Below the pieces are notes generated by a model. It made no database searches. It saw only the letters and a program-made list of their open reading frames with translations, and was not told where the DNA came from. Both the position numbers and the translations under genes were made by a program. A stretch of DNA of 64,000 bases, taken from positions 434,001-498,000 of the forward strand of contig NZ_ML660165.1 in the NCBI RefSeq assembly GCF_007004725.1, read 5' to 3'. How positions within the stretch are numbered: position 1 is the stretch's first letter; each line of letters opens with the position of its first letter. Source of the DNA: Aliikangiella coralliicola (GTDB lineage Bacteria > Pseudomonadota > Gammaproteobacteria > Enterobacterales > Kangiellaceae). Positions 21,286 through 50,637 of this stretch are shown piece after piece.

Positions 21286-22251
21286 TCAGTCTCGAACTAT
21301 TTTGAGTTTATCTTCTTCTCGATAGGTCAAAATAAAAGTGACTTCACTCTGCTTTAAAAAGGCTATCGCGTCTTTCACCGGTAATAACATACCAAGTGTC
21401 GATAGCGTTCCAGCAACAATACAAAGCGGCGCAATAACTGTCACACTCGCCGCGTTGGACACAGGATAACCTGTCTTTGGATTAAAAATATGACAATACC
21501 TGCGACCATTCTGGATGAAAAATTTTTCATAATCTCCGCTGGTAGCCACCGCTCCATGTAATAGATTGATACGACAGCATGCCTTGTCACTATTATCGGG
21601 ATGGCGAATGCCAATGGGCCAGCCTTGATTCGCAGAATAATCTGAATCCGCGAATGCGCTCCCGTTGCTCTCTTTTAAACTAATCGATGAACTTAATTTA
21701 GTTTCCTCAGTTAGCTCGGATCCAATGGCAACAATATCTCCCCCCAAATTGATCAACCCATTTGTAATCCCAGAGTTTAACGCGATATTCTTAACAGCAT
21801 CAGCCGCGTATTCTTTCACAATGCCACCAAAATCAAGCTCCATGTCTTTAGGCACTGAAATCTCACCGTCATTCCAATTGATTTTGTTCCAACCAATTCG
21901 TTTCAAACAATTGTTGACCACTTTTTGTTCGGGAATTAGCTTTGACTTGAAATCCCAGATCGTGCGGAGCACGCCCGAGCTGATATCAAATAAGCCATCG
22001 CTAATTTGATAGGCTGTCTGCGCGTAGTTGAGTATTGCGGTAGTCTCAGAATCGACTTTAGTTGCATTAGAATGCTGATTAATTTTAGAGAGGACGCTAT
22101 CTTCAAGATAGCGAGAGTATTTCTTTTCGAAGCGAAGCACTTCATTTCTACAGGCGTCAAAAACCTTGCGAACACTTTTTTCACTGTGATGAAAAAAACG
22201 CAGTTCGCAAGGGCCGCCCATCGCGTGAAAAGAGATTTGATAGCATTTCAT
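21286..22251 (-). CDS. apbE: ApbE-family FAD:protein FMN transferase
   Basis: ApbE landmarks are in order: HAMGGPCELRF, RYLEDSVLSKIN, LDFGGIVKEYAADA, NLGGDIVAIGS, TSGDYEKFF…CHIFNPKTGYPV, and the end domain (SVTVIAPLCIVAGTLSTLGM). The enzyme transfers FMN from FAD to Ser/Thr of [S/T]GA[S/T]-type sites in redox proteins, using Mg. It is the last gene of a six-gene co-directional series. It is odd in having no signal peptide or lipobox, and an in-frame TAA just upstream of the ATG excludes an extension, so it should act in the cytoplasm although its neighbours are exported. A Glu replaces the usual Gly in the GGIxKGY motif. Confidence 0.9.
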   Translation of the reverse strand: MKCYQISFHAMGGPCELRFFHHSEKSVRKVFDACRNEVLRFEKKYSRYLEDSVLSKINQHSNATKVDSETTAILNYAQTAYQISDGLFDISSGVLRTIWDFKSKLIPEQKVVNNCLKRIGWNKINWNDGEISVPKDMELDFGGIVKEYAADAVKNIALNSGITNGLINLGGDIVAIGSELTEETKLSSSISLKESNGSAFADSDYSANQGWPIGIRHPDNSDKACCRINLLHGAVATSGDYEKFFIQNGRRYCHIFNPKTGYPVSNAASVTVIAPLCIVAGTLSTLGMLLPVKDAIAFLKQSEVTFILTYREEDKLKIVRD

Positions 22252-22337
22252 CGTTTATAGTTTACACGCTTTTGGAAAACGAACTATCAATATATTTTTT
22301 AATCGGCGCAATAAATTCCATCGCCGGTAAAAACAAT

Positions 22338-23480
22338 TTACCACTTAGTATCAAACCCAATAGTTAACCGGGTAAAGTCAACTAACCCAGGACTTTCTAA
22401 CGCCACATTGTTAAACGAATAGTCAGCGTCCGAATCATAATTTTCGTATGAAATCGTATATGACCACGAACTAAATCTCTGGATAAAGGCAAGCTTAAGA
22501 CTCAACGCACCATAGGGCGATAACCGAAAGTCTGACGAATAAAACTCAGGTTGATCATCGGGTTCATAGGGTTCGTAGAAGAATGTCTCTCCTTGAGAGT
22601 AATAACGAATCGCCGGAACCAGTTGCATATCGGTCCCAATATTTTGATGCCATTCAATATCAATCGTATCTGACTGCATTTTCCAGTCGTCACTATAGTA
22701 GCGATAATTAAAATGCAACGCGGCATCAGCAGCATCAAAAAAGCTTCGTAATTGAACGCTATACGCACTTTGTTCTTTAGTCGTCGGACGAGAATCACCT
22801 GTTTTGTAAGGATCAGTTAAAAAACCTTCCGACTCGGTAAAGCTGGTGCCGAACAAAATAATATTGTTTGGCGAAAGAATTTGCGACAAGCTGAGAGAAT
22901 ATGAACTGGTTTCTTTTTCGGCACTTAACACGCGATTAAATACTTCTGCGTCCGATGGTGACAAATCATCATCTGCCGTGGAGAAACCAATATTCAATGA
23001 TGTATTTTTGGCATTAAAAGAAAAACCTAAATCGCCGGCCACGTAGCTCGACTCATAATCATTTTCTTTTGATACGCCACCTTCCAAAGCCCAGTTAAAA
23101 AGTTCACCATAATGGGTAAAACGAACACTGGTATCTTGCCGCTTTTCTGAAATACTGGCACCACTCATAATTAAGCCAACGCCGTTAGCGGTTCTTTCCG
23201 TGGCAACCGGTGATGCACCGGAAAGTGATTCTCCTAACCAGTTCACTTCCAATGAATTATCATCGCCAATTAAGGTTAATAACCTCATTTGGTGCACATC
23301 AATTTCATACCGAGACTTGACGCCGCCGGTTAGTTCAACATCATCGGCGATGTCGTCTTCAACATAACTGGAGTAACGATAACTAAATTCCGAATCAACG
23401 GGTGCGCCATTTCCGGAAGCAACAGCCGGCAGCATTAACGCACTGGCCATCAGGCAATTTTTTGGATTTATTTTTTTCAT
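22338..23480 (-). CDS. DUF3570 family outer-membrane-like protein
   Basis: A signal peptide (…ALMLPAVASGNG) is followed by alternating amphipathic strands with aromatic residues, ending …DFTRLTIGFDTKW, the pattern of a beta-barrel ending in an aromatic residue. The early part has SLSGASPVATERTANGVGLIMSGASISEKR, with two SGAS words that resemble ApbE flavinylation sites. DUF3570 proteins are of unknown function and I associate them with DUF4266 proteins and ApbE. It lies 12 bases after the DUF4266 gene and 86 before apbE. Identity as DUF3570 is by motif and context. Confidence 0.8.
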   Translation of the reverse strand: MKKINPKNCLMASALMLPAVASGNGAPVDSEFSYRYSSYVEDDIADDVELTGGVKSRYEIDVHQMRLLTLIGDDNSLEVNWLGESLSGASPVATERTANGVGLIMSGASISEKRQDTSVRFTHYGELFNWALEGGVSKENDYESSYVAGDLGFSFNAKNTSLNIGFSTADDDLSPSDAEVFNRVLSAEKETSSYSLSLSQILSPNNIILFGTSFTESEGFLTDPYKTGDSRPTTKEQSAYSVQLRSFFDAADAALHFNYRYYSDDWKMQSDTIDIEWHQNIGTDMQLVPAIRYYSQGETFFYEPYEPDDQPEFYSSDFRLSPYGALSLKLAFIQRFSSWSYTISYENYDSDADYSFNNVALESPGLVDFTRLTIGFDTKW

Positions 23481-23492
23481 TTCACTAATGTC

Positions 23493-23714
23493 CTAATTAC
23501 AACCACAACCGCCGCCGGCAGCTGAACTGCCTCCTGATGAAGCTTCTTTACTCCAATAAATATGCGACTCTAAACGACCTTCAAGAACATCATTGCTCCA
23601 GGCCATTTCAGGTCTGGCTAATTTGCCTCTTTCCCAAGGCTGAACAACCTGACATCCACTTAGAAACATTCCCAACAGCGAAATGCTTAATATCAATCTT
23701 ACGCGGTGATACAT
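23493..23714 (-). CDS. DUF4266 small lipoprotein, 73 aa
   Basis: Lipoprotein signal (LGMFLSGC at residues 14-21), then the DUF4266 core PWERGKLARPEMAW and a Gly/Ser-rich tail ending AAGGGCGCN. The last residues contain a Cys-Gly-Cys pair. The mature chain is only about 53 residues, so the protein is probably a lipid-anchored substrate or carrier rather than an enzyme. It begins 6 bases after the thioredoxin-like gene stops, which suggests that its CGC tail may be handled by that protein. This last point is inference. Confidence 0.85.
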   Translation of the reverse strand: MYHRVRLILSISLLGMFLSGCQVVQPWERGKLARPEMAWSNDVLEGRLESHIYWSKEASSGGSSAAGGGCGCN

Positions 23715-23720
23715 CGTTAT

Positions 23721-24212
23721 TTACTCACTCAATAAAATCTTGATAGCTTGATCCAATTTAGCCTTGTCAGACTTTTTATAACCCTGATGTCGCAGTCGAA
23801 TCTTGCCTTTTTTGTCAATTAAAAAAGACGACGGCATGGTGGCAACCTGGTAAGCTGATGGCGTCTGTTTTTTATCATCGTAAAGATTGGTGAAACTCAC
23901 TTTAAAACTTTTGAGAAACTCTTTTCCAAGACCTGCGTTGTCATCAAGATTAACAGTGATAACTTCAAATCCTTTGGCTTTGTTTGCCTGGTAAATTTCT
24001 TCCATAGCAGGAAATGATTTCCGGCAAGGTCCGCACCAGGAGGCCCAAAAATCGACATAAACGACCTTTCCGGCATAATCAGAAAGCGACACTTTCTTGC
24101 CTGAATAAATATCTGACAAGGTAAATGCCGGGGCCGGTTCATTTTTAGCCTGGGCAACAGAAATGGATGCTACTAATGCAAGTAGACCTAACAACTTAAA
24201 CCACAACTTCAT
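23721..24212 (-). CDS. TlpA/ResA-like thioredoxin, periplasmic
   Basis: The ATG at 24212 has AGGAG upstream and gives a clean signal peptide (MKLWFKLLGLLALVASISVAQA); the frame opens at 24266, overlapping the previous gene. The mature part is a redoxin/AhpC-TSA type thioredoxin with WCGPC at Cys-60/Cys-63 and the cis-Pro loop VATMPSSFLID. Such proteins transfer electrons to periplasmic disulfides, often during cytochrome c or metal-site maturation. Neighbours include a multi-haem protein and a CGC-tailed lipoprotein, either of which could be its client. Confidence 0.9.
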   Translation of the reverse strand: MKLWFKLLGLLALVASISVAQAKNEPAPAFTLSDIYSGKKVSLSDYAGKVVYVDFWASWCGPCRKSFPAMEEIYQANKAKGFEVITVNLDDNAGLGKEFLKSFKVSFTNLYDDKKQTPSAYQVATMPSSFLIDKKGKIRLRHQGYKKSDKAKLDQAIKILLSE

Positions 24213-24258
24213 TGATTTTTTCTCCTGATAAAAAGCGCGAATTAAAATTTGTTTTACG

Positions 24259-25581
24259 TTAAACATTGGTAAAAATATTATTTAGCGTCGAAACATTGCC
24301 CCCATAAGGAACCGTTGTTCCAACCGCTTTGGCAACTGTCGCCCAAACTCTCTGAACATCGACGAGTTTACCTAGTCGCCAATGGTTGCGTTCACCCTGC
24401 TCACGTAAATCAAAGTAGCGACCTGTTCCGTTCCCATTTTTTAGTAAACCTGAAGCACCGCCGATCATGGTGATAGGTAAATCAACCATATGCTCTGGTG
24501 CTCCGTCGGCCATTTCGCTGGTGAAAATAACTAAGGTGTGATCGAGCAGAGAGTCTCCCGGTACATCGGGATCAGGGTAAAAAGCGAGCCGGTCAAGCAA
24601 ATGGCGTACTTGTTTTACGTACCAGATCCGTGAACCTTTCCATTCTTCAGCACTGCCATAACGATGGGAGCAGTCGTGAGGATTACGAGTTGGGGAAACC
24701 GATTTAATGACCACTTGATCCGAAGAGCGGCCAATCTGGTAGGTTGCCACCCGAGAACTCCCGCAGCTTAACGCAGAAGCCAAAATGCTGGCGTGCGCCT
24801 GCGTTACCTCTTGTCGAAAATCGGGGGAAGTAATTGCCATTCCCTCTTCCGGCTTTGCACTGGCAGGACTACACCCTTCAATTGGAACACTATCTCTGAG
24901 TTCTTGCGCAACTTGTTCAACGGCATCAAGATGAGTGTTTAATTTATTTCGTTCACTAAGTCCTAATTTTGAGCGCAACTCTTTAATATCTTCTTTCACT
25001 GGATCGAAAACATGTGCTTTATTGGCAGGGCCTTCTCCTGAACCATCTGCACCGTAAATCTGTTCAAAAAGTTGGTAAGGGTTATCTTCTGGAAGCAACA
25101 AAGTATTATCTTTATAAGAAACATTCCATTGCACGCCAACCATCGAATGAGGGCCGGAATAAAGCCTTTTTAACGCAGGAGTGTTTCCGGGAATGGCATT
25201 ACCAATGATATTATCGATTGACGTCATACTTGAATTGGAATCCCTTAAAATCGTTTTCCAACCATTGTGGCCGCCGGTGCCGCTTCCCAAAATAAAGCCA
25301 CGCAAAAATAACGACTGCTTGTAATAGTCTCCCAAATGTTGCGACATTTCATTCATCAGGAATGATGTCGTGTCTACTTCATCGGTTTTTGGATACCACA
25401 AACCATCATCAAAACCAGCGAAGCTATCAACGCCAAAACCATCGGGCATCACCGCAAAAACAACTTTCAACTTAGGCGTTCCAGAAGCCATCGCCATGCG
25501 CATCATCCCTGTCATTGACAGAGGCGTCGCGATTGAAGTTGCTAACACACTATTTAAGAATTTTCTTCGAGTCATATTCAT
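24259..25581 (-). CDS. DUF1552 family protein, Tat-exported
   Basis: The N-terminus has a twin-arginine motif (TRRKFLNSVLATSIATPLSM), implying export in folded form, probably with a cofactor. The body shows the DUF1552 pattern: GTGGHNG, SSMTSIDNII, GVQWNVSYKDN, RVATYQIGRSSDQV and DHTLVIFTSEMADGAPEHMVDLPITMIGG, the last resembling the metal-site region of alkaline-phosphatase/sulfatase-like DUF1501 relatives. DUF1552 genes are known to pair with DUF1592/1588/1585 genes, as here (25 bases after that gene). Biochemical role is unknown. Start could be ATG at 25581 or 25575. Confidence 0.85.
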   Translation of the reverse strand: MNMTRRKFLNSVLATSIATPLSMTGMMRMAMASGTPKLKVVFAVMPDGFGVDSFAGFDDGLWYPKTDEVDTTSFLMNEMSQHLGDYYKQSLFLRGFILGSGTGGHNGWKTILRDSNSSMTSIDNIIGNAIPGNTPALKRLYSGPHSMVGVQWNVSYKDNTLLLPEDNPYQLFEQIYGADGSGEGPANKAHVFDPVKEDIKELRSKLGLSERNKLNTHLDAVEQVAQELRDSVPIEGCSPASAKPEEGMAITSPDFRQEVTQAHASILASALSCGSSRVATYQIGRSSDQVVIKSVSPTRNPHDCSHRYGSAEEWKGSRIWYVKQVRHLLDRLAFYPDPDVPGDSLLDHTLVIFTSEMADGAPEHMVDLPITMIGGASGLLKNGNGTGRYFDLREQGERNHWRLGKLVDVQRVWATVAKAVGTTVPYGGNVSTLNNIFTNV

Positions 25582-25606
25582 GACGTTTACTCTCTATTGT
25601 CTTTTA

Positions 25607-28600
25607 TTACTCTCGATCCAGTCGATAAATTGAAACATTGTTCATCAACATTTCTTTGATCAGCGCTTTCATATCACCGGAATCTCTAAAGTTCTTCTGC
25701 ACCTGTTCGAGTCCTTTTCTTGAGGTAACATCATCTTTGTGACCGGTAACAAATCGAAACATATTATCGGCGAAGCAGTCTCGAACCAGATTGCTGCTTC
25801 CCATAAACTGAGTTAGCTCGCGCGCGGTTTGGTAGTTCAATAGATCGGTTCCGCCGGAGTTGTCTCTCAGAGTACCGGCGGTAACAATATCAAGCATTTT
25901 GCTTGCATCGTTGTAGGCAGGTTCTTGCGTTCTGAATTTTCCTGTCTGGTCGAATGATTCGAGTGAACTTCCCGGCTCATTCATTAACTGATGACATTCC
26001 CAGCATTGCCCTTCACTGGCCGCCGGTCCTGTGATGACATTCCATCGTTCTCTTGTGGTGATGGGGTGAGTGGGTAACTCAATAGTCGCCGGGTCAACAC
26101 CAGACGGAACGCCCATCTCGTGGCACAACATATTTTCTCGAATCATTTTGCCGCGCTTAACCAATGATGTCGCCGCGAAATCACTATTCAGAATTTGTGT
26201 GTATCCCTGGTGTAACAAACCACCTCGATTTTGATCACTTAACTCAGTTTTTTGTACTGTAGAACTCGCGACTCCATTGATACCATAGTGAGAAGCCAGC
26301 ACGTTATTTAGAAAGGTGTAACCTGGGTTGAACAGTTCGTTAATATTTGCAGTGCCTTCCTTAAACAAATACTTAACTGACTCTTGTTGTTCTTGCTTCA
26401 TCGCACCGATGACAGAGGCATTCAATCCTGGTTTTTCATGGGGCTCGCCATAGGTTTTGGTGTAGTAAGAAACGAACTTTCCAAGGTGTGCCGCAAAGCG
26501 ATCATCATTCATCATGGTGTCGATCTCTGTGCCTATTTTTTCAGAGACGATGAAATCATTACTAGCAGCCTTGGCTAACATTGCGCTATCGGGTGCTGTT
26601 CCCCAAAGTTGAAAGGACAGCATTGATGCAACTTCATAGGAGTCGAGCTGATAAGCTTTTTCTTCTTCACTCCATGTACCTAACTCAACCAAATACAAGA
26701 AGTGAGGAGACAGCAACATTGCGTTAATCGCATCGGCAGCTCCGTGATTAGTATTGATTGTGCTATAGCGTGTTGTCTCGGCAGAAGTCAGCGGTCGCCT
26801 GAACACTTTTAAACCCAGCGCGACCAATTGCGCTTGCGTACAAGCATTGGCAGAGCAACCAACCGCAGTCAAATTAGTTCTCGCCGCGACTTTTTCTGCT
26901 AACGCGTGAAACTCCCGAACTCGATCAGCTAACAGCACGCCTCTTTCAGCTTGCGTCGGGTATTTAAAGTCATCTTCAAAAATCGCTTTAGGTAGTAGTT
27001 CATCTTCTAGCGCAACCTGGAAAATATCCTTAACCACGTTTTGGTATTCGTAAGGCGTTAATAGTCTCAAACCTCTCACGCCTCTTGCCAACGTCGGTGT
27101 TTCTCCTGGGTCAATGGTGAATCCCCACGCGTCTTCCCAGATATATTGTGAGATAATATCAAGGCAGTCTGTGTCGCAATCAACCACTTGCATCGACGCA
27201 ACTTTGCTGGTGAATTCATCATAAGTTTTCGTCGACCATTTGGTTTTAACCTGGCTGGTAAACAGATCACCACCAATGCCGCCGCTTGAATTATGACAAC
27301 CAGAACAAACTCGGTTAAAAGCAGATTCGCCTGGACTGGTTGCCGGGTAAGTCACCTCGCTGACATTAGTAAACGCAGACTCACCAATCGAATTTTTTGC
27401 GCTCACTTGATAGGAGTATGTTGTCCCTTCTGTGATTGACGAATCGGTATAGGTTGTCGTGTTTGCACCAACTGACGTTAGTCGACTCCAGGCTGCGTCG
27501 CCAATTCGTCTGTAAATCTCGAAACTATCTTCGTTGGTCGCATTGTCTTGCCAGGTCAAAATAATTGAGTTCGATTCAAAAACACCGGCTAACAATGTAG
27601 GCGCAGGTGGAATGACTTCATCTTTTTTAACTTCAACCAGGTTACTGGTAATTTTCGCCGCGTTACCAAAATTGTTATACGCCATCAGCTGATATTGATA
27701 GGTGTGATTTAGCGTAATACTGGTATCGGTGTAGCTAGTAACTTCTGCTTGTACCGTTGTCAGTTCTGAATAACTTCCCGAATCAATTGAACGATAGATT
27801 TTAAAACCCGCTTCGTTATCAGAATTATCCTGCCAGCTAATTGTGACGTTTTCTTTATCGGCAGAAACGACTGCATTGACCGAACTAACGTCTGCCGGAG
27901 CAACTCGGAATTCAATGACATTACTGGCAACCTTGGCAGCCTTGCCAACTGAATTATAAGCTTCAACCTGGTATTGATAGCGATGGGAGTTACTGATATT
28001 GCTATCACTGTATTGAACAACATTCGCGACTACTGTCGAAAGTAAATTGAAGCTACCATTATCGATAGAACGATAAATATTAAATCCTGTTTCATTACCT
28101 GAGCGATCAGTCCAGCTGAGTGAAATATTATCTTTATTCTGTGAAGCTTCCGCCTTCACTGATTTAACAGCTAACGGAATTTCGTTTTCGCCATCGCCTA
28201 ATTCGTAACCCCACTTTTCATTCCATAAGTATTCCGCAAGTGTTTTGGTACAATCGGCATCACAGTCAGAAGTATTCATCGTTTTGACTTTGGTGTGGAA
28301 TTCAGGGAAGGCTGCGTTAGCCCACTTTGCTTTGATTTGCATATCAAGCAAGTTCACTCCAACACCACTACCATCAGCCTTATGACAATCCATGCATTTG
28401 TTTTCAAATAAAACCTGAGTTGGATTCACTGCCGGATAAGTAATCGTAATTTCATTACTGCTTGCCGACTCACCAAGTGAGTTTTTGCTACTGACTTTGT
28501 AAGAGTAATTGTTACCGGCGGCAATCGCGGTATCGTTATATTGCGTCGTGTTGGCTCCCAGGGAAATCAACAATGACCAACTACCACTTCCTGTTTTTCG

Positions 28601-30568
28601 ATACAACTCGAACGTATCTTCATTATCGGAGTTGTCGTTCCAGGAAAGCGAAACCAGGTTAATATTGAAAGCGCCGACTAAAGAAGAAGGCGGTGAAGGT
28701 GGCGTATTTTCTTGTTTCAACTCAACTAGATTACTTAATACTTTCGCTGCATCGCCAAAAGAATTATACGCCATAATTTGATACTGATAAGAGTGGTTCA
28801 ATGCGACATTATCGTCAATGTAAGACTGACTATCAGCGGTCAAGTTTAGTAATTTTTCATAGTTACCGGAGTCAACTGATCGGTAAATTGTAAAACCATC
28901 TTCGTTATCAGACTGATCTTTCCAGGTGATTGTAATTGAGTCTTTATCCGCAGATGCGATGGCATTTACTTGCTCAACCGGTTGCGGAGCAACTCTAAAT
29001 TCTATCGAGTTACTTTCCACCTGAGTTGATTCGCCGAAATCATTGAATGCTGTTAGCGCATATTGATATTTATGGTTATTTGAAATTTCAGAATCAACCA
29101 GCTCAACCGTGTTTTCAGATAAAGTCTTGTAGAGTTCATAAACGCCATCATCGATGGCCCGAAAAACTTTAAAACCAGTTTCATTGTTTGAACGATCAGT
29201 CCAACGAATTGTGATTTTATCTTTTGCTTGCGATGCAACGGCAGTGACATCATTAACACTCGCCGGTGGATCATTTTCGGCATCAATGGTGTACAGCCAC
29301 TGATCTTTCCACACATATTCCGCAACAAGATTAAAACACTCGTCATCACAATTATCAGCTTGCATTGTCTTAACCTTGGTTAAAAACTCTGCATAGGTAT
29401 TCGATGACCAACTCTGTTTCACTTGCGGATCCAGCAAGTCGACGGCGACACCGCTGCCACCAGTTTTATGACAACCGACACAAGTTGTCTCAAACAACGC
29501 AGCACCTGTTGCTTTTAAAGTGACTTGAACCACATTGCTGTGACGAGATTCGCCCGCAGCATTTTTCGCGGTCACGCGATAACTGTAGGTTGTTCCTTGC
29601 TCCACACTAGCATCAACATAGCTAGTTACATCAGCTTGGGTTGAATAAATAACAGACCAGTTATCGGTATTATTTCGCCGATATATTTCAAAACTTTCCT
29701 CATTGGCAGCGTTGTCATTCCAGTCCAGAGAAACGCGATTATTTTGCAGCATTCCGCTCAGCATCGAAGGCGCAGCCGGGGTCGTTAAATCTTCGCTTAA
29801 CTCAACAGCATTACTTTTTACACCTTCGGCTTCACCAAAATCATTAAAGGCAACAACTTGATACTGATAGCGATGATTTAACTCAACATAGTTATCAACG
29901 TATGCCTGAGTATTTTGCGGCACAGTTTCTAACAAATCAAAAGTCCCATTATCAATTGAACGTGAAATTCTGAAGCCCGACTCTTCTCCGTTGCCAGGAC
30001 TCCAACTCAACGAGATAGAATCCTTTGAACGAGAAGACTGCGCAACAACCGCACTTACCGACTCAGGTGGTTGCTCGTTCTGCTCATTTAGCATTTTCTC
30101 GTAAAGGTAAACCAGGTAGGGGGTTATCAAATCAGCGCAATCGTTGTCGCATTCATCGGGACGACCATAAGGCATTGTTTTCAATGTTACTTCGTGCATG
30201 CTCGCGTAAGATTTAGCAATTTTAAATAGTGGGACCTGACCTTTACCATCGCCACCATGACAAGACTGGCAATTCATATCGTAGGATTCTTTCGACGCAA
30301 CGATCTCCGGCGGTATTGGGTCAATCACAACTTCTTGATCGTCTTTTGAAGCGCCCATTTCTTCTTCGGAAGCAGAACAAGCAGCCAGAATGAGAAGTAA
30401 CCCAAAAACCCCAAATAGCCTGCGACATACACTCGCGAATGAGTAACCAGATTCAACTATCAACTTAAATCTCCGAACTAAAGGAATACACACTTTAGCC
30501 ATGGCCAAAATTATTTTGTGCGCAATTGTATCGGAAGCAGAAATCTCAAAATGCCAAATAATTGACAT
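25607..30568 (-). CDS. Giant DUF1587/1592/1588/1585 lipoprotein with haem and FN3 modules
   Basis: About 1630-1653 aa. A hydrophobic segment with lipobox LILAAC marks a lipoprotein; the true start may be the ATG at 30502. Four cytochrome c-like modules follow (CQSCH, CVGCH, CMDCH, CSGCH), each with a later KTM/ASM candidate Met ligand and a CDxxC pair. They are separated by eight FN3 domains (blocks of two, three and three). The C-terminal 480 residues hold the planctomycete-type DUF1587, DUF1595 (LGLKVFRRPLT), DUF1592 (LLSPHFLYLVE), DUF1588 (RGKMIRENMLCHEMG … a fifth CxxCH, CWECH) and DUF1585 domains. It probably stands on the membrane surface as a multi-haem oxidoreductase; the reaction is unknown. 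First gene of the six-gene series. Confidence 0.9.
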   Translation of the reverse strand: MSIIWHFEISASDTIAHKIILAMAKVCIPLVRRFKLIVESGYSFASVCRRLFGVFGLLLILAACSASEEEMGASKDDQEVVIDPIPPEIVASKESYDMNCQSCHGGDGKGQVPLFKIAKSYASMHEVTLKTMPYGRPDECDNDCADLITPYLVYLYEKMLNEQNEQPPESVSAVVAQSSRSKDSISLSWSPGNGEESGFRISRSIDNGTFDLLETVPQNTQAYVDNYVELNHRYQYQVVAFNDFGEAEGVKSNAVELSEDLTTPAAPSMLSGMLQNNRVSLDWNDNAANEESFEIYRRNNTDNWSVIYSTQADVTSYVDASVEQGTTYSYRVTAKNAAGESRHSNVVQVTLKATGAALFETTCVGCHKTGGSGVAVDLLDPQVKQSWSSNTYAEFLTKVKTMQADNCDDECFNLVAEYVWKDQWLYTIDAENDPPASVNDVTAVASQAKDKITIRWTDRSNNETGFKVFRAIDDGVYELYKTLSENTVELVDSEISNNHKYQYALTAFNDFGESTQVESNSIEFRVAPQPVEQVNAIASADKDSITITWKDQSDNEDGFTIYRSVDSGNYEKLLNLTADSQSYIDDNVALNHSYQYQIMAYNSFGDAAKVLSNLVELKQENTPPSPPSSLVGAFNINLVSLSWNDNSDNEDTFELYRKTGSGSWSLLISLGANTTQYNDTAIAAGNNYSYKVSSKNSLGESASSNEITITYPAVNPTQVLFENKCMDCHKADGSGVGVNLLDMQIKAKWANAAFPEFHTKVKTMNTSDCDADCTKTLAEYLWNEKWGYELGDGENEIPLAVKSVKAEASQNKDNISLSWTDRSGNETGFNIYRSIDNGSFNLLSTVVANVVQYSDSNISNSHRYQYQVEAYNSVGKAAKVASNVIEFRVAPADVSSVNAVVSADKENVTISWQDNSDNEAGFKIYRSIDSGSYSELTTVQAEVTSYTDTSITLNHTYQYQLMAYNNFGNAAKITSNLVEVKKDEVIPPAPTLLAGVFESNSIILTWQDNATNEDSFEIYRRIGDAAWSRLTSVGANTTTYTDSSITEGTTYSYQVSAKNSIGESAFTNVSEVTYPATSPGESAFNRVCSGCHNSSGGIGGDLFTSQVKTKWSTKTYDEFTSKVASMQVVDCDTDCLDIISQYIWEDAWGFTIDPGETPTLARGVRGLRLLTPYEYQNVVKDIFQVALEDELLPKAIFEDDFKYPTQAERGVLLADRVREFHALAEKVAARTNLTAVGCSANACTQAQLVALGLKVFRRPLTSAETTRYSTINTNHGAADAINAMLLSPHFLYLVELGTWSEEEKAYQLDSYEVASMLSFQLWGTAPDSAMLAKAASNDFIVSEKIGTEIDTMMNDDRFAAHLGKFVSYYTKTYGEPHEKPGLNASVIGAMKQEQQESVKYLFKEGTANINELFNPGYTFLNNVLASHYGINGVASSTVQKTELSDQNRGGLLHQGYTQILNSDFAATSLVKRGKMIRENMLCHEMGVPSGVDPATIELPTHPITTRERWNVITGPAASEGQCWECHQLMNEPGSSLESFDQTGKFRTQEPAYNDASKMLDIVTAGTLRDNSGGTDLLNYQTARELTQFMGSSNLVRDCFADNMFRFVTGHKDDVTSRKGLEQVQKNFRDSGDMKALIKEMLMNNVSIYRLDRE

Positions 30569-32963: not shown

Positions 32964-33281
32964 TTAACTGCTCAACCTTGCTCTATCTTCTAATATAAAC
33001 TTACGCAATTCTCTTTCACTGCGCATAACATAAAGAACAAATACAAGCTTCTCCTCAACGCGGTAGAATATTCTGCAAGGACCAATGATCAGTTCGCGGT
33101 AGCGAGTATCGTACAACTCAGGCGGGCGGCGTCCACTTTCAGGGAATTCTCTCAGGCGCTTAACTGAATTAATAATTTCTTTAACGAGATTCTTTGCTGC
33201 ACTTGGTTTATCTAATGCGATATATTCGGCAATCTCGTTCAAATCATTTAAAGCTGGCTCGGTCCAATTTATTTGAGCCAT
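32964..33281 (-). CDS. RelE/ParE-family toxin
   Basis: 105 aa with the ParE/RelE fold pattern: WTEPALNDLNEIAEYIALDKPSAAKNLVKEI (two helices), FPESGRRPPEL, then strands RYRELIIGPCRIFYRVEEKLVFVLYVMRSERE. ParE members block DNA gyrase while RelE members cut mRNA; the sequence features here (long N-terminal helices, no clear RelE catalytic set) favour ParE. The start overlaps the antitoxin gene by 13 bases, the usual coupled arrangement of type II modules. Confidence 0.9.
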   Translation of the reverse strand: MAQINWTEPALNDLNEIAEYIALDKPSAAKNLVKEIINSVKRLREFPESGRRPPELYDTRYRELIIGPCRIFYRVEEKLVFVLYVMRSERELRKFILEDRARLSS

Positions 33282-33526
33282 TTAGTCAATTTCTCTTCAG
33301 CTTCCGATTCAGAAAAGACTCGTCCTTCTAAAACAGCTCTTTCTCCTCTAGCGATGCCCTCTAGAATGTTCATTCTACTTTGCATTAGCTCAAAGTCTTC
33401 AAAATCAACAAGATAAGCTGAAGGTTTACCATGCTCAGTGATAAGAACTGGCTCTTTAGATTCATGAAGATCTGCAAGGATCTTCGTGGCTTGACGTTTA
33501 AGTGTTGTTACAAGTTCAGTTTTCAT
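33269..33526 (-). CDS. Phd/YefM-family antitoxin
   Basis: 85 aa with the Phd/YefM N-terminal DNA-binding pattern (LVTTLKRQATKILADLHESKEPVLITEHGKPSAYLVDFEDFE) and a C-terminal helical toxin-neutralising tail. Antitoxins of this class bind their own promoter, alone or with the toxin. A perfect dyad operator abuts the start codon (33528-33551). No ribosome-binding site is seen, so the message may be leaderless or start inside the dyad. Confidence 0.9.
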   Translation of the reverse strand: MKTELVTTLKRQATKILADLHESKEPVLITEHGKPSAYLVDFEDFELMQSRMNILEGIARGERAVLEGRVFSESEAEEKLTKWLK

Positions 33527-44750: not shown

Positions 44751-45668
44751 CTATTCTTTTAGTATCGATTCCTTTGGTTTCCATCCTGGTGCACGAAAAA
44801 TGTAACCCGCAAACTCACCCAGAGAGTTTGCATTACGCAGATCTCGATACATTCGCATCCATTCGTAAAATTGAACGGTGATAGGATTTTTTGAGGTCAT
44901 TGGTGTTGTTAAACCATAAGTAGGCAGTTTTTCTTCCTTAGCGAAAGTACCAAAAAGTCTATCCCAGATAATTAATATACCACCGTAATTAGTATCGATA
45001 TATTCCTTGTCTGAACCGTGATGAACACGATGATGAGACGGCGTATTAAACAACCATTCGAGAGGTCCTAGCTTGCCGATCATTTCATTATGGATCCAGA
45101 ATTGGTAAGCCTGAATAATAATTTCCGCAGCAAAAATAAACATGGGATGAAACCCAAGTAACAACAAGGGAATATGAAAAATCGCAGAAATTAACGGATC
45201 AAACAAGCTAAACCGAAATGCCGTCGCAGTATTCATCACATTCGAACTATGATGAACCGAATGCGCCGCCCAAAATAAACGAATTTTATGCAAGCAGAAA
45301 TGTTCGACGTAGTATGTGAAATCAGCCATTAGTAATACTAGAAAGAAGCTCATCGCATTCACGGGCATCTTCCAGGGAATATAGTCGTATAGCGTAAAGT
45401 AACCGTAAACAGCCGTTGCAAATACAACAACCTCGCCAAAGTAAAAAGGTATTTGGGTAAAAATACTGGAAAGCGTTTCTAGAAAACGATCTCCGGTAAA
45501 ACGCTTGGAAACCGCGTCATCTAAAAGTTCGATTAATAAGAAAAGCAAGGCGAAAACCAAAACCCAGTCATAAATATCTATGGATATGTATTCGAAATAT
45601 TCAGTAATCGTTTTAATATTTGACTGACTGCTCAGATAATCAAAAAAATTGTCCACAAAGCTCACCAT
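44751..45668 (-). CDS. Fatty acid/sterol hydroxylase-family membrane protein
   Basis: Several membrane segments and the eight-histidine pattern of the diiron family: HFCLH (His-123/127), HSVHH (136/139/140), HNE (193) and SHHRVHH (212-217). Members hydroxylate or desaturate sterols, fatty acids or carotenoids using O2. 305 aa is typical. It is the last gene of an operon with a Rieske oxygenase, a dihaem propeller lipoprotein and a small anchored protein, 12 bases after the latter. The substrate is probably a membrane lipid, inferred from family and context only. Confidence 0.9.
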   Translation of the reverse strand: MVSFVDNFFDYLSSQSNIKTITEYFEYISIDIYDWVLVFALLFLLIELLDDAVSKRFTGDRFLETLSSIFTQIPFYFGEVVVFATAVYGYFTLYDYIPWKMPVNAMSFFLVLLMADFTYYVEHFCLHKIRLFWAAHSVHHSSNVMNTATAFRFSLFDPLISAIFHIPLLLLGFHPMFIFAAEIIIQAYQFWIHNEMIGKLGPLEWLFNTPSHHRVHHGSDKEYIDTNYGGILIIWDRLFGTFAKEEKLPTYGLTTPMTSKNPITVQFYEWMRMYRDLRNANSLGEFAGYIFRAPGWKPKESILKE

Positions 45669-45680
45669 GATTTAAGTTTA

Positions 45681-46310
45681 TTATCGGTTAATCGCTAGAT
45701 AGGCGCGCTGAGAAAGCACCTGGAATTGCGCATTGACTTCATAAACTTCGAAGTCGACTTCATATTTTAATGCTAGCTCACCAGGATTTTGCCAGCTTTC
45801 AAGAACGGAATTGCGACTAACATAATTTCCCTGCGGGAGCGAAATGGATGCAAATCCGGTGGCATTCTCCCCCTCATCACCTACCTCAAACCCTAGCGTC
45901 AGTTCAACACTTTGCTGCTCTTCGTCATATTGAGAGTAGACCAGGTAGATGCTTCTTTTACCATTTTCAGCCGGAAACCAATCATGCAATTTCGTCGCAT
46001 AAAGTTCTGCCCACAAACTCTCCATTTGCATCGGAATATCCCGATTCAGGTATAAGTTTTTTCGAATTCCTAAAACTTTTGTCGTTGATAAAAATCGAAC
46101 ATTTTCTGATGAAGCTTCATTAGTGTGAGTCGATACTCTGCCTGTTAGCTTGTCAGAAGAATTAACCTGCTCCGCTTCACTTTCAGAATACGAAAAACTC
46201 TCTGGTTCAGGCCAATACGCCCTGACCAACATGCCCATGAAAGCAAACATAAAAAGTACTAGAAGAATATAGGCAGTTCGCAATATCAAGTTATGCCGTG
46301 GTAATGTCAT
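45681..46310 (-). CDS. Membrane-anchored GyrI-like (effector-binding) protein
   Basis: The ATG at 46310 has GGAG upstream; a GTG at 46322 is in frame. A single membrane segment (about 8-32, LRTAYILLVLFMFAFMGMLV) is followed by a linker and a domain whose pattern fits the GyrI/effector-binding fold: LWAELYATKL, SIYLVYSQYDEEQQSVELTLGFEV, FASISLPQGNYV. Such domains bind small hydrophobic ligands. Its periplasm-facing placement in an operon of lipid-type oxygenases suggests substrate binding or delivery. The domain call is tentative. Confidence 0.6.
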   Translation of the reverse strand: MTLPRHNLILRTAYILLVLFMFAFMGMLVRAYWPEPESFSYSESEAEQVNSSDKLTGRVSTHTNEASSENVRFLSTTKVLGIRKNLYLNRDIPMQMESLWAELYATKLHDWFPAENGKRSIYLVYSQYDEEQQSVELTLGFEVGDEGENATGFASISLPQGNYVSRNSVLESWQNPGELALKYEVDFEVYEVNAQFQVLSQRAYLAINR

Positions 46311-46364
46311 TATCGTCTCCACTCATAGCAACAATAGTCAAACCCTGTTTGCTTTTGCTCATCA

Positions 46365-49300
46365 TCATTCCTCATCACCATTTAATACGCCATCAAGATT
46401 TCTATCTAGCGCCATTTGCCTTCCCATTCCTGGCACCTGACAAGTAAAGGTTAAACTATTACTTTCTTGAGAAATTAAAGCGCTTAACTCAGTTAAGGTC
46501 ATGGACTCATCATCTTTTCGATCGGTTAAAAAGTTTTGATTTTCCGAATCAAATAAAAAACCTCTTCTTTCCCCGTCAATCACACCCTGAACGATTAAGT
46601 CGCATTCTGTTACAACGCCTCCAAGAATCTTTGAGGTAAAAGGCGTACTCGCGCGCGTTTGCAAAAGTTCAACTCGCTCCATCATCGCTAAAGTATAGTC
46701 GAATGTTAACGTCATTTGCTGACCGACGATCGGGGCTAAATCGGAATCAAACTCCATCATAAAGTCGACTAATCCTTGCCTCGTAGTATCATCCGGGATG
46801 CCCACTACTCCCTCATTGAAATCACAACCATGGGAACTCGATAATCCTTCAGGGCAAGGTGCCTCGCCATTATCAAACACGCCACCTTTTAAGAAATTAG
46901 CGAGCTGGTCGGTTGCACCATCGTGCAAAAAACCAAAACCTCTAACCTGAGCGCCTTGATGCTGTTTTGTATGAGAAGGAAGAAATCCTTCTCGGTCAGG
47001 CAAACCGAACATGCCAACCCTCGAATACAGGTTTCGCAGTTGCGGTACTTTGAAAATTTGAATTTCACCCCCATGAGCGACCTCTCCACGAGTACCATAA
47101 AATCCTTTGGCAGGATCTAAACCATGGCAGCCTTCACAGGTTACTCCATCTTGCTCAGGACCATTAAGGTCCGAGTCTACAGCTAAACCATCAGAGCGGC
47201 GTGTACCGATAAAAAAATCTCGACCGGTGACCGCCGAATTCGACAATGAATTATCCAAACCACGAATCGGATTTGGTGGCATTTGCACACTCAAAATAAA
47301 ATCAGCAAACTTATCCATATCATTTTCTAAATTAATGACGGCTTCGGACTTGTTGTCCTCACTAACACTTGCTGGTAAATCAATATCCAGTCCCAACAGT
47401 CCTTCAAATGCGACAATAAAATTCTTGAATGATGTTCGTTCGTCTAACTGCTGCTCGATATCGTTTCCGAAATAACCGACGGAACGATCACCGCGCCAAT
47501 GCATGTGACCATGAGTGCTCATTCCCCTGAGCGACTGGGAGAACATTGGCCCTTTCATCGAAGCGATAGTCAAAAGCTCACCATCACCATTTAAAATATC
47601 AAGTAGCTCGCAACTCGGCTCAGTAGGACCGACAAAGTCACACCCCAAAGAAGAAAATTTAGCTGTAGGAAATGGTTGTGGATTAACCTGATTGCTGGCA
47701 TCTGGGTTGCCGAGATTCCAGGCGAGCTGGTCGCTGTCACCAAATACATGACAGCTGGCACATGAAGCTTCACCATTTGACGAAGACCGGTTCGCATCAT
47801 AAAGCATAAAACGGCCGGCTTTCACCTGTGCCGGTTCGGGAGTCAACATTGCTATTCGTTGCAACTCGTTGCCATTTTGCGCGTTTAAAACAACCACAGA
47901 GTTATCAAAGCGTGTGTAAACCAGTAATTGATTTTTAGTTTCATTCAATTTTAATCCGACTGGTCCACCCGGCACATTAAAATGATCAGCACCGACAGTC
48001 ACAGGATCAAATTCCTCACCACGTCCGTCCCAAAGTTGCTGATCTTTTAAATCCTGCGTTTGGTAAATCGCAACTTTATTCGAACCAAGTGAAGCGACAT
48101 ATAGCCTTTCCCCATCTTTAGTTATTGCTAACTGGGTCGGTGTTGCCACAGTGTGCTGTTTTATTGCTTCACTTTCTTTGAGAGTTGAATAATCAATATG
48201 TCGGTTCAGAGGTCTTGCGCTAACTTGACCACTTTGGGTTTCGATAATGGTGATTCTGGCTGGCGCAATATTTCCCTGAACAGTTGTTCCTCCTGTTATA
48301 CCGGGACCTTCAAAACGGGTTGCATTATTAGAATTGGTATTAGTGACATAGAGCTCTCCACTTTTCGGATTGACTGTCATATTAAACAGCGTTGTTCCAA
48401 CATTAGAATAAGCGCTGGTTTGTTGCAGGCTCTCTGAATTGATGGCAAAAACATCCAGATCCGGCAAAGTAAAACGAATACCATTACTAAAATTCCGCCC
48501 CATCGAATCTCGCCATTCACCGCTATCAGAATCGAATTTAACGATCATAGAAGTCCATGGTTGATACACGCCATCACTATTAACTCCAGGCGCAGCTCGT
48601 CCGCCAGGCAAGTCGCCATTTGCAAGTCCTGCAGGAGAACGAATACCATCCATCACTTTACAAGGCTGACTGCCAAGATCGTCGTCGGTAAAACCATAGC
48701 AGAGCACAGATTCATGCACCGCGCTGGTTTGGTTACCAGAATGAAATACCGCAGCATAAACCGTTGACTGGTCCGGGGTTACCGCCAGAGCTCTGGGCGT
48801 ATCGCCAAACAATTCGATGATCTTTAAAGGAGTGCCGCCAACCGCCGCGCCAGGCTCATCGGCATCAAAAACCCAAATATCAGCCCGACCTATTCCTGGT
48901 TCATGCAATAACGGATCTCCTGCGCCTTCCACACCTGCCAAAGAAGAATGAGTCCTGTGTTGTCCTCGATGCGCGGTGGTGATAAAAGCGCGATTTTTCG
49001 CAAACACAATATCTCGAGGCTCATCACCGACTAATAGCGTACGAGCGACATAAGGGATAACCTGATCAATCCTCACAATACTGACAGAATCAGAAACATG
49101 GTTGGTAACCCAAACTTCTCGCTCGTCTTTTACCGAAACTGCAACCGGTTCAATACCAACTGGAACCGAGTGTTGCAACACTAATTGCTCCTGCTCGTTA
49201 TAGGTAAATATATCCAGCGAGTGATTCGGCGTGTTGGTAACAAAAACCCTATGCCCATCTAAAGATTTTGCCACAGGCCTGACAGGACCAGACTCGAAAG

Positions 49301-49424
49301 TAACAAAGGTATTTTTTGCAGGTTCCACAATCACCGGAGTGGGTACAGTTGTGTTTTTTTGTGATGTCCGGCTACATGCAATCACTAGTAGACCACAAAA
49401 CAATACTAAGACAATACGGCGCAT
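46365..49424 (-). CDS. Lipoprotein with YncE-like propeller and dihaem peroxidase-type domain
   Basis: Lipobox LLVIAC at the N-terminus. Residues about 40-540 are beta-propeller blades of the YncE/surface-layer type (VTNTPNHSLDIFTY, VTNHVSDSVSIVRI, VASLGSNKVAIYQT). From about 545 comes a cytochrome c peroxidase/MauG-like half with two CxxCH haem sites (CASCH near 555, CEGCH near 761) and other conserved stretches (SMKGPMFSQSLRGMSTHGHMHWRGD; FKVPQLRNLYSRVGMFG). It probably lies on the outer membrane or periplasmic side as an electron donor or peroxidase. Second gene of the Rieske operon, 34 bases after it. Confidence 0.85.
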   Translation of the reverse strand: MRRIVLVLFCGLLVIACSRTSQKNTTVPTPVIVEPAKNTFVTFESGPVRPVAKSLDGHRVFVTNTPNHSLDIFTYNEQEQLVLQHSVPVGIEPVAVSVKDEREVWVTNHVSDSVSIVRIDQVIPYVARTLLVGDEPRDIVFAKNRAFITTAHRGQHRTHSSLAGVEGAGDPLLHEPGIGRADIWVFDADEPGAAVGGTPLKIIELFGDTPRALAVTPDQSTVYAAVFHSGNQTSAVHESVLCYGFTDDDLGSQPCKVMDGIRSPAGLANGDLPGGRAAPGVNSDGVYQPWTSMIVKFDSDSGEWRDSMGRNFSNGIRFTLPDLDVFAINSESLQQTSAYSNVGTTLFNMTVNPKSGELYVTNTNSNNATRFEGPGITGGTTVQGNIAPARITIIETQSGQVSARPLNRHIDYSTLKESEAIKQHTVATPTQLAITKDGERLYVASLGSNKVAIYQTQDLKDQQLWDGRGEEFDPVTVGADHFNVPGGPVGLKLNETKNQLLVYTRFDNSVVVLNAQNGNELQRIAMLTPEPAQVKAGRFMLYDANRSSSNGEASCASCHVFGDSDQLAWNLGNPDASNQVNPQPFPTAKFSSLGCDFVGPTEPSCELLDILNGDGELLTIASMKGPMFSQSLRGMSTHGHMHWRGDRSVGYFGNDIEQQLDERTSFKNFIVAFEGLLGLDIDLPASVSEDNKSEAVINLENDMDKFADFILSVQMPPNPIRGLDNSLSNSAVTGRDFFIGTRRSDGLAVDSDLNGPEQDGVTCEGCHGLDPAKGFYGTRGEVAHGGEIQIFKVPQLRNLYSRVGMFGLPDREGFLPSHTKQHQGAQVRGFGFLHDGATDQLANFLKGGVFDNGEAPCPEGLSSSHGCDFNEGVVGIPDDTTRQGLVDFMMEFDSDLAPIVGQQMTLTFDYTLAMMERVELLQTRASTPFTSKILGGVVTECDLIVQGVIDGERRGFLFDSENQNFLTDRKDDESMTLTELSALISQESNSLTFTCQVPGMGRQMALDRNLDGVLNGDEE

Positions 49425-49458
49425 ATTGAATTCTCTTTTGGTTTATTTAGTGAAAAGA

Positions 49459-50637
49459 TTATTGATTGAAATTTAAAAAAAGCTTTGCCTGATTTGATTC
49501 GGAATATGCGTCAGGCGTTGAGTCAAATAATCGGGACGCAAGAAATTGCCTGAAATCGACTAGTATATTTTCCATAGAAACTAGTTTTCCTCCTTGAGCA
49601 ATTCTGGAATGCATCCCTCGCTGGACTCTTTCGCAAATCAACTTATCTTCCTCAAGGAAATCTTGAGTGAGTTGATCCTGGTTGACCTCACCTTTAGAGA
49701 CAAAATAGTTAGATAGCCCTCCCTGGCTCACGACACTGCTCAATGGACCTTTTGGCAAAATTTGTAGCCAGTCAAAAGATCCGTAAGTAAGAATTCCGAC
49801 AAAAGATGGTGGCAATGAAATAAGCAAGTAATGGTTGTAGACCTCTGGAGAATCTCCGGTTATCCATTTCATTAGTCGACTTCGGTCATCGCGAAGTTTT
49901 CCACCGCTCAAACTCGATTCGGAACTACCTGCTACATAATAAGTATCTTTACTCGGACTTTGTTTTTCTAAAGTCTCCTTATGAACTTTAAACAGATGAT
50001 AACTTTCAATCGCATTTTCAAACGCTAGCTTCCAGTTTGCTTCCCAACTTTCAGAGTTGCCCTGGTAACAGTTGAGTAATTTTTGCGGTTCAAATACATC
50101 AACAAAATTTTGTAAACAACCAGTTCGGTTTATCAAAGGCTCAGGCTCATCACCAAGATTAATAAAGAGAAGGCCCATCCAACTGTCCAGATGAAATCTG
50201 GGCAAACAGTGTTTTTCTTTTTCAACATGAATATCCCCGGCAAAGGGAACACCTTTTAATTTGCCAGAATCGTCATAAGTCCACGCATGATAAGGACAAA
50301 CAATATTCTTTTTAATATTGCCATATCCTTCATCGAGTAAGGGTGTCCCCCGATGGCGACAAATATTGGAAAGCGCTCTAAGTTGTCCGTCCTGGCCGCG
50401 AATCACAGCGATGGCTTCTCCGGCAATATCCAAGGCCAGATAATCCCCTTCGTTGGACAACTGTTGTTCGTGACAGACGAATATCCATTCTCGATGAAAA
50501 ATATACTCCGCTTCAGCCTGATACACCGAAGGATCATGGTAGACAGCGAAAGGCAGCGCTACTGCGTCCTCAATTGGTGCTGATGCTAATTTCTGATATT
50601 CCTGAAAGAGCAAATGCTCATTTGTATTTTTTACCAA
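49459..50637 (-). CDS. Rieske-type ring-hydroxylating oxygenase, alpha subunit
   Basis: Rieske 2Fe-2S site CRHRGTPL…CPYHAW (Cys-93, His-95, Cys-114, His-117) and mononuclear iron ligands in ENAIESYHLFKVH (His-214, His-219; an Asp/Glu later). 392 aa is normal for single-component-type alpha subunits. The start is a TTG with GAGG 8 bases before it; no ATG exists in frame before the upstream stop. No reductase or ferredoxin gene accompanies it, so electrons must come from elsewhere. First gene of a four-gene operon under a TetR-type repressor. Substrate unknown. Confidence 0.92.
   Translation of the reverse strand: MVKNTNEHLLFQEYQKLASAPIEDAVALPFAVYHDPSVYQAEAEYIFHREWIFVCHEQQLSNEGDYLALDIAGEAIAVIRGQDGQLRALSNICRHRGTPLLDEGYGNIKKNIVCPYHAWTYDDSGKLKGVPFAGDIHVEKEKHCLPRFHLDSWMGLLFINLGDEPEPLINRTGCLQNFVDVFEPQKLLNCYQGNSESWEANWKLAFENAIESYHLFKVHKETLEKQSPSKDTYYVAGSSESSLSGGKLRDDRSRLMKWITGDSPEVYNHYLLISLPPSFVGILTYGSFDWLQILPKGPLSSVVSQGGLSNYFVSKGEVNQDQLTQDFLEEDKLICERVQRGMHSRIAQGGKLVSMENILVDFRQFLASRLFDSTPDAYSESNQAKLFLNFNQ

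Follow-up and report, generated by a model that had tools for sequence, protein, structure and literature searches.

A six-gene locus of Aliikangiella coralliicola that may couple a planctomycete-type cytochrome pair to a flavin-thiol module

Do six adjacent genes, most of them for exported proteins, make up one system, or do two unrelated units lie side by side? The question is raised by a block at positions 21286-30568 of the window, by which we mean the whole 64,000-nucleotide stretch of Aliikangiella coralliicola contig NZ_ML660165.1 that was analysed and in whose positions coordinates are given. The block is transcribed from the minus strand in the order DUF1595/DUF1592/DUF1588 cytochrome, DUF1552 protein, TlpA/ResA-like protein, DUF4266 protein, DUF3570 protein and ApbE. 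They look more like a single dedicated subtype than like two adjacent units, because a pair equivalent to the first two accompanies the module of the other four in three further families of the class, and because one clade of the DUF3570 tree matches those modules together with that of the window. Our tentative reading, to which we give slightly less than an even chance, is that they form one extracytoplasmic electron-transfer system in which a distinct DUF3570 clade is dedicated to the planctomycete-type cytochrome pair.

The six genes and what is known of them

25607..30568, minus strand: probable lipoprotein, 1653-residue open reading frame (ORF); four c-haem domains with FN3 spacers, DUF1595, DUF1592 and DUF1588 plus a fifth CxxCH (Pfam, motifs)
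27338..29512, minus strand: within it, two copies of a unit of one c-haem domain and three FN3, 53% identity over 357 residues (sequence comparison)
25922..26647, minus strand: within it, DUF1592 (26279-26647) and DUF1588 (25922-26227); fifth CxxCH at 25991-26005 (Pfam)
24259..25581, minus strand: DUF1552 (HXXSHH) protein; motif TRRKFL of the twin-arginine translocation (Tat) type at 25555-25572, HDCSHR at 24661-24678 (Pfam, 3e-34)
23721..24266, minus strand: TlpA/ResA-like thioredoxin-fold protein; CGPC at 24024-24035, probable start 24212 (Pfam, motifs)
23493..23714, minus strand: DUF4266 lipoprotein of 73 residues; lipobox LSGC at 23652-23663, C-terminal CGC at 23499-23507 (PF14086, 1.9e-22)
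22338..23480, minus strand: DUF3570, probable outer-membrane barrel with C-terminal Trp; SGAS at 23211-23222 and 23154-23165 (Pfam, 4.3e-54; barrel inferred)
21286..22251, minus strand: ApbE, the flavin adenine dinucleotide (FAD):protein flavin mononucleotide (FMN) transferase, without a signal peptide (PF02424, 2.7e-69)

All six ORFs reported for this block by the sequence-only reading, an earlier note on the same DNA, were recovered at these positions. Flanking the block are genes for fumarase C and a radical-SAM (S-adenosylmethionine) protein, both identified by Pfam on the plus strand; within the block, the DUF1592/DUF1588, DUF1552, DUF4266, DUF3570 and ApbE assignments are all above the Pfam cut-offs. 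Taking the first ATG of the TlpA-like gene as its start, the intergenic gaps are 25, -8, 6, 12 and 86 bases; four of these agree with the earlier values, and the 46 bases previously given for the second gap hold if translation begins at codon 19, an ATG that has AGGAG upstream and forms the beginning of a signal peptide. Promoter and terminator scans of the block gave no excess over shuffled sequence, and a single transcript is not established thereby.

The first gene encodes the multi-haem, lipid-anchored DUF1592 protein that had been predicted: five CxxCH motifs (residues 100, 363, 725, 1088 and 1522), eight FN3 units and a lipobox are present, and lipoprotein status is probable. Its Pfam matches are strong (PF07631, 5.8e-23; PF07627, 3.8e-23; PF13442, 1.6e-23). 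As the lipobox, LAAC, occurs only at residues 61-64 (30377-30388), the true start is probably downstream of the ORF start. The DUF1552 gene (PF07586, 3e-34) adjoins it across the gap of 25 bases. A search with the DUF1552 profile gave nine matches up to E 1, four of which are sulfatases at weak values (E 0.11-0.89); these are compatible with a phosphatase-like fold of DUF1552 and prove nothing.

The third protein passes the Redoxin and AhpC-TSA cut-offs of Pfam and falls short of the NCBIfam TlpA and ResA cut-offs, so 'TlpA-like' is the right label: the thioredoxin-fold part of the previous TlpA assignment stands, but the TlpA model itself is matched below its threshold only. It also matches Thioredoxin_8, and PF13899, the thioredoxin-like family of the published clusters (PMC8238504), is absent from its list of matches at E 0.01. 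The DUF4266 protein ends in CGCN, the CGC being residues 70-72. In DUF3570 both flavin-site motifs are retained, as SGAS at residues 87 and 106; outer-membrane barrels often end in Trp, as this protein does. The block had also been described as nearly all exported, which fails for ApbE: this protein shows no signal-like stretch, begins 9 residues ahead of the conserved AMGGPC motif and, judged by its N-terminus, is probably cytosolic. Of 64 ApbE proteins near DUF4266 in the order (Enterobacterales), 11 attain a hydropathy of 1.6, a rough threshold, and among the six top-scoring ones listed a single one, from genome G038, resembles a signal peptide; the same threshold is attained by 95 of 96 TlpA-like and 60 of 60 DUF4266 proteins. 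A cytosolic ApbE would have to attach FMN ahead of DUF3570 export, unless it leaves the cytosol another way. A third DUF4266 module in the window genome (C10, L054 7253-10296) consists of TlpA-like, DUF4266, DUF3570 and ApbE, with no cytochrome pair.

The four-gene core has been published. Meheust et al. (2021, PMC8238504) showed by co-expression that ApbE flavinylates DUF3570, in that experiment from Chlorobium luteolum, at two [S/T]GA[S/T] sites, and reported the set of TlpA-like protein, DUF4266, DUF3570 and ApbE in hundreds of clusters, 285 with DsbD beside them ('DsbD systems') and a further 316 without. Thioredoxin-like proteins paired with DsbD generally take electrons from it, and the function of these flavinylation clusters was termed uncertain (PMC8238504). 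The window block has in common with them ApbE, a DUF3570 with two [S/T]GA[S/T] sites, a thioredoxin-like protein and a DUF4266 with a C-terminal CXC (PMC8238504). What it adds, upstream, are the multi-haem DUF1592/DUF1588 lipoprotein and the DUF1552 protein with its Tat-type motif. Two assertions of the sequence-only reading are thereby overturned: it held that four of the six families had no established function, when the four core members had been described together in 2021 and the flavinylation of DUF3570 demonstrated, and it presented the whole as an undescribed system (PMC8238504). The main text of PMC8238504, whose supplementary tables may name such neighbours, has no mention of DUF1552, DUF1501 or hydrazine, and in a 2024 follow-up (PMC11334425) we found no DUF3570 and, in its main text, no DsbD or thioredoxin.

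The haem pair resembles the PSCyt/PSD cytochromes of Planctomycetes and Verrucomicrobia, whose genes adjoin genes of unknown function and, in Verrucomicrobia, are linked with carbohydrate modules (PMC5615132). Both combine PSD and PSCyt domains with c-type haem in one protein and have a neighbouring family of unknown function; the spacers differ, being FN3 in the window protein and carbohydrate-binding modules in some PSCyt cases, and the passages of that paper on these cytochromes mention no flavin or thiol module (PMC5615132). No paper joining the haem pair to the flavin-thiol set was among the matches listed in a search of titles and the beginnings of abstracts that included few subscription papers and had bioRxiv outside its scope. 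The link of the module to the haem pair is thus the new part, as far as the papers searched show.

Equivalent loci and the DUF3570 tree

Our survey of the order took in the surroundings of 102 DUF4266 loci in 73 genomes, at least 7 kb being available on both sides in 88 of the 102. DUF3570 lies near all 102 loci and a thioredoxin-like gene of one similarity cluster near 96. The nearest relative of the window DUF3570 in this set belongs to another family (G292, C35; 35% over 393 residues, the next being at 27-29%), and directly upstream of it, on the same strand, are genes for a 1726-residue protein with two CxxCH motifs, a Tat-type DUF1501 protein and an SNase-like protein. The 1726-residue protein matches DUF1588 at 25.7 bits, just below the 27-bit cut-off. 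Outside the HZS_alpha type treated below, 21 of 71 loci of the order have a c-haem or Tat-like protein of more than 250 residues in their flanks, and only two, the window block and this G292 locus, combine a large c-haem protein with a Tat-like one encoded on the strand of the module.

In the class as a whole, DUF4266 was found in 90 of 369 genomes, and a search for DUF1588 (PF07627) covered 80 of the 87 DUF4266-positive genomes lying outside the order. It returned five matches, three of them above cut-off, and two of these three sit 3.1-3.2 kb from DUF4266 (G304 and G526). Both loci contain a cytochrome with two CxxCH motifs, a Tat-type DUF1501 protein, TlpA-like, DUF4266, DUF3570 and ApbE. 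In G304, ApbE is placed upstream of the cytochrome, whose DUF1592, DUF1588 and cytochrome CBB3 matches all exceed their cut-offs; in G526, ApbE runs off the contig and the cytochrome (L176 1738-4050) is split by one in-frame stop, which is either a broken gene or an assembly fault. As judged by profile comparison, DUF1501 and DUF1552 are homologous (hhalign; 326 columns aligned, probability 97%, E 8.7e-11). Accepting DUF1501 for DUF1552, matching components are found in G292, G304 and G526, in three other families, and the outcome that had been named as breaking the system into two, co-occurrence in close relatives alone, was not obtained.

A FastTree phylogeny of 116 DUF3570 sequences (102 from the order and 14 others) places exactly four modules, those of the window, G292, G304 and G526, in one clade with a support of 0.997. 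All four members keep both flavin motifs, the second being an invariant SGAS within MSGASI and the first SGAS in three and TGAS in one. Among the other 112 tips, none was found to combine a DUF1588/DUF1592 cytochrome with a DUF1501/DUF1552 protein, as screened by motif patterns for the order and by phmmer for the rest, with part of the neighbours run against Pfam. Fisher's test gives p 1.4e-7 for the coincidence of clade and partners, a value that assumes independence of the tips, although they are related, and that uses labels assigned post hoc. When the phylum was searched with the profile of this DUF3570, 26 of 353 genomes matched; G759 and G688, next best by score, have no cytochrome pair in their surroundings. 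In G380 (L226 10906-14040) a DUF1501-type Tat protein and a 554-residue lipoprotein-like protein are encoded convergently with a DUF3570 module. This locus was rejected as a member, having no c-haem protein beside the module and lying outside the clade.

Several observations weigh against a single system. The clade has only four tips and was labelled after its partners had been seen. The cytochromes of the two versions give a profile alignment only round CxxCH (58.9%), so their kinship rests on shared Pfam families, and the AlphaFold models are unusably poor (mean predicted local distance difference test score 33.8 for DUF1552 and 57.5 for the DUF1592-DUF1588 region). No DsbD was found among the five genes on either side of the block, the rest of the genome not having been searched. 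ApbE carries no export signal, a fact that any scheme must accommodate.

The literal DUF1552 version is known with the module from one genome only. Of 295 genomes of the order, 9 have DUF1552 (8 above cut-off), as do 6 of the 369 sampled from the class; the window genome is counted in both figures. In the 8 other genomes of the order no match lies near DUF4266; two of them are without any DUF4266 match and one (G017) has short contigs. Likewise, DUF1592 gives 11 matches in 7 of the 73 DUF4266-positive genomes of the order, the window's alone being near DUF4266. The nearest relatives of the pair, from Agaribacterium haliotis (61%), Vibrio splendidus (52%) and G045 (51%, the nearest in the order), have no module in the flanks available, which in Vibrio extend less than 1 kb on either side. 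The first two were found with two short peptide patterns, in a scan that may miss many. In G045 (L051 3275-10856), the DUF1592-DUF1552 pair is followed by genes for M66 and M64 peptidases with chitin-binding-type modules, the M64 match being below cut-off.

Taken literally, these relatives make two units of the block, the DUF1592-DUF1552 pair having landed by chance before an ordinary TlpA-DUF4266-DUF3570-ApbE module. That only 1 of 11 DUF1592 matches is near DUF4266 and that the same genome has a module (C10) without a cytochrome speak for such an accident, but the matching layout with a homologous DUF1501/DUF1588 pair in three families, together with the coinciding DUF3570 clade, speaks against it, and we consider it unlikely. 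An empty-site comparison was uninformative: the radical-SAM neighbour was located in 6 of 10 relatives, one of which (G014) has a single ApbE-like gene adjoining it, and because fumarase and the six-gene block are absent beside it in all six, synteny is silent on how the block arrived.

Other haem partners of the module

A second association became apparent with HZS_alpha (PF18582), a domain named after hydrazine synthase, in a survey confined to genomes chosen for having DUF4266. In the order, 31 of the 73 genomes yield 35 matches, of which 31, from 21 genera and 9 families, are located 2.9-3.9 kb from DUF4266, and the class has 53 matches in 45 of 80 genomes, 40 of them at 2.6-4.6 kb; altogether 71 of 88 matches lie 2.6-4.6 kb from DUF4266. 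The window genome has its own such locus (C7, L053 11935-14622). The loci inspected contain TlpA-like, DUF4266 and DUF3570, an SH3/barrel protein, divergent c-haem proteins and a Tat-like protein without a Pfam family. One of the c-haem proteins matches DUF1585 below threshold, and a comparison of the Tat-like protein with DUF1501 showed no identity (hhalign probability 1). No description of an HZS_alpha-DUF4266 cluster was among the literature matches listed.

As in the window block, the TlpA-like protein, DUF4266 and DUF3570 of these clusters are accompanied by exported c-haem proteins and a Tat-like one. The clusters differ from it in that 30 of 31 loci of the order have no ApbE in their flanks (it was present in 1 of 31), in that most have no flavin motif and in that their DUF3570 forms a separate clade. 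The HZS-type loci of the order supply 31 of the 32 tips of this clade, and the 32nd, G817, also has an HZS system. Within the order, DUF3570 is without a flavin motif in 21 of 31 HZS-type loci compared to 2 of 63 loci of other types with ApbE near (Fisher 1.8e-11); the motif is kept in the remaining 10 HZS-type proteins and also at eight further loci without ApbE nearby. Partners therefore tend to be constant within a DUF3570 clade, and the HZS-type clade seems able to do without flavin. In one genome (L157 6070-8037), an MtrC/MtrF-like cytochrome with 10 CxxCH motifs is encoded two genes upstream of a TlpA-DUF4266-DUF3570-ApbE module.

A broader proposal, possible though doubtful, is that the TlpA-DUF4266-DUF3570 core is a general outer-membrane thiol power supply, connected to surface haem machines that differ from clade to clade. 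On that proposal, to which the same doubt attaches, the machines would be of the DUF1592/DUF1552 type with flavin, HZS-alpha-like and mostly without flavin, and in one instance an MtrC-like decahaem protein. It would also open a path for electrons, thiol to flavin to haem, through the outer membrane, and with it a first electron source for the DUF1501, DUF1552 and PSCyt families.

Electron flow and competing schemes

For the six genes as one system, the most likely function is an outer-membrane electron relay; its electron path, direction of flow and location, as well as the role of DUF1552, are what we infer. ApbE, probably cytosolic, would add FMN to the two SGAS sites of DUF3570, which would then be inserted in the outer membrane as a barrel. 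Electrons from thiols could pass from the TlpA-like protein to the DUF4266 lipoprotein, at its CGC tail, and on to the FMN of DUF3570, whose flavins would be in electron exchange with the five haems carried by the DUF1592/DUF1588 lipoprotein, the repeated haem-FN3 units extending this large protein outward from the membrane. DUF1552, which its Tat signal suggests is folded in the cytosol, might serve as an enzyme partner of the cytochrome. Such a relay keeps part of the six-gene extracytoplasmic pathway first proposed for this DNA, since the genes do belong together beyond the lineage, but ApbE is probably cytosolic and the core had already been described.

The thiol proteins could instead act in maturation. 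TlpA and DUF4266 would then keep the haem-binding cysteines reduced and ApbE would finish DUF3570, leaving DUF3570 and the cytochrome as the working complex. ResA serves cytochrome c maturation, and it is the nearest NCBIfam model, below cut-off, of the thioredoxin-like protein; modules of two types also adjoin c-haem proteins. Against this, 50 of 71 modules of the order outside the HZS type have no c-haem or Tat-like protein above 250 residues in their flanks, so that the two thiol proteins persist where no cytochrome adjoins them, and we regard a maturation role as improbable.

Electrons might also run the other way, the DUF1552-cytochrome pair oxidising a polymer or sugar bound at the surface, with flavins and thiols merely accepting the electrons. 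The related G045 pair beside M66/M64 peptidases with chitin-binding-type modules and the ties of PSCyt genes to carbohydrate modules in Verrucomicrobia (PMC5615132) are consistent with such oxidation. It appears quite unlikely, as thioredoxin-like proteins with DsbD generally receive its electrons (PMC8238504) and the operon contains no donor or acceptor enzyme.

A compact operon in another phylum here ties the haem pair to a relay whose first chemical step has been demonstrated, and the electron source and partner of the pair are therefore open to a few knock-outs and a flavin gel. The fixed partners suggested for DUF3570 clades would make function readable clade by clade.

Elsewhere in the window, a four-gene run on the minus strand (44751-50637) encodes a Rieske ring-hydroxylating oxygenase, a 1019-residue protein resembling a lactonase propeller and di-haem peroxidase with two CxxCH motifs, an effector-binding protein and a fatty-acid hydroxylase. 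A ParE-type toxin and a Phd/YefM-type antitoxin are paired on the minus strand at 32964-33526.

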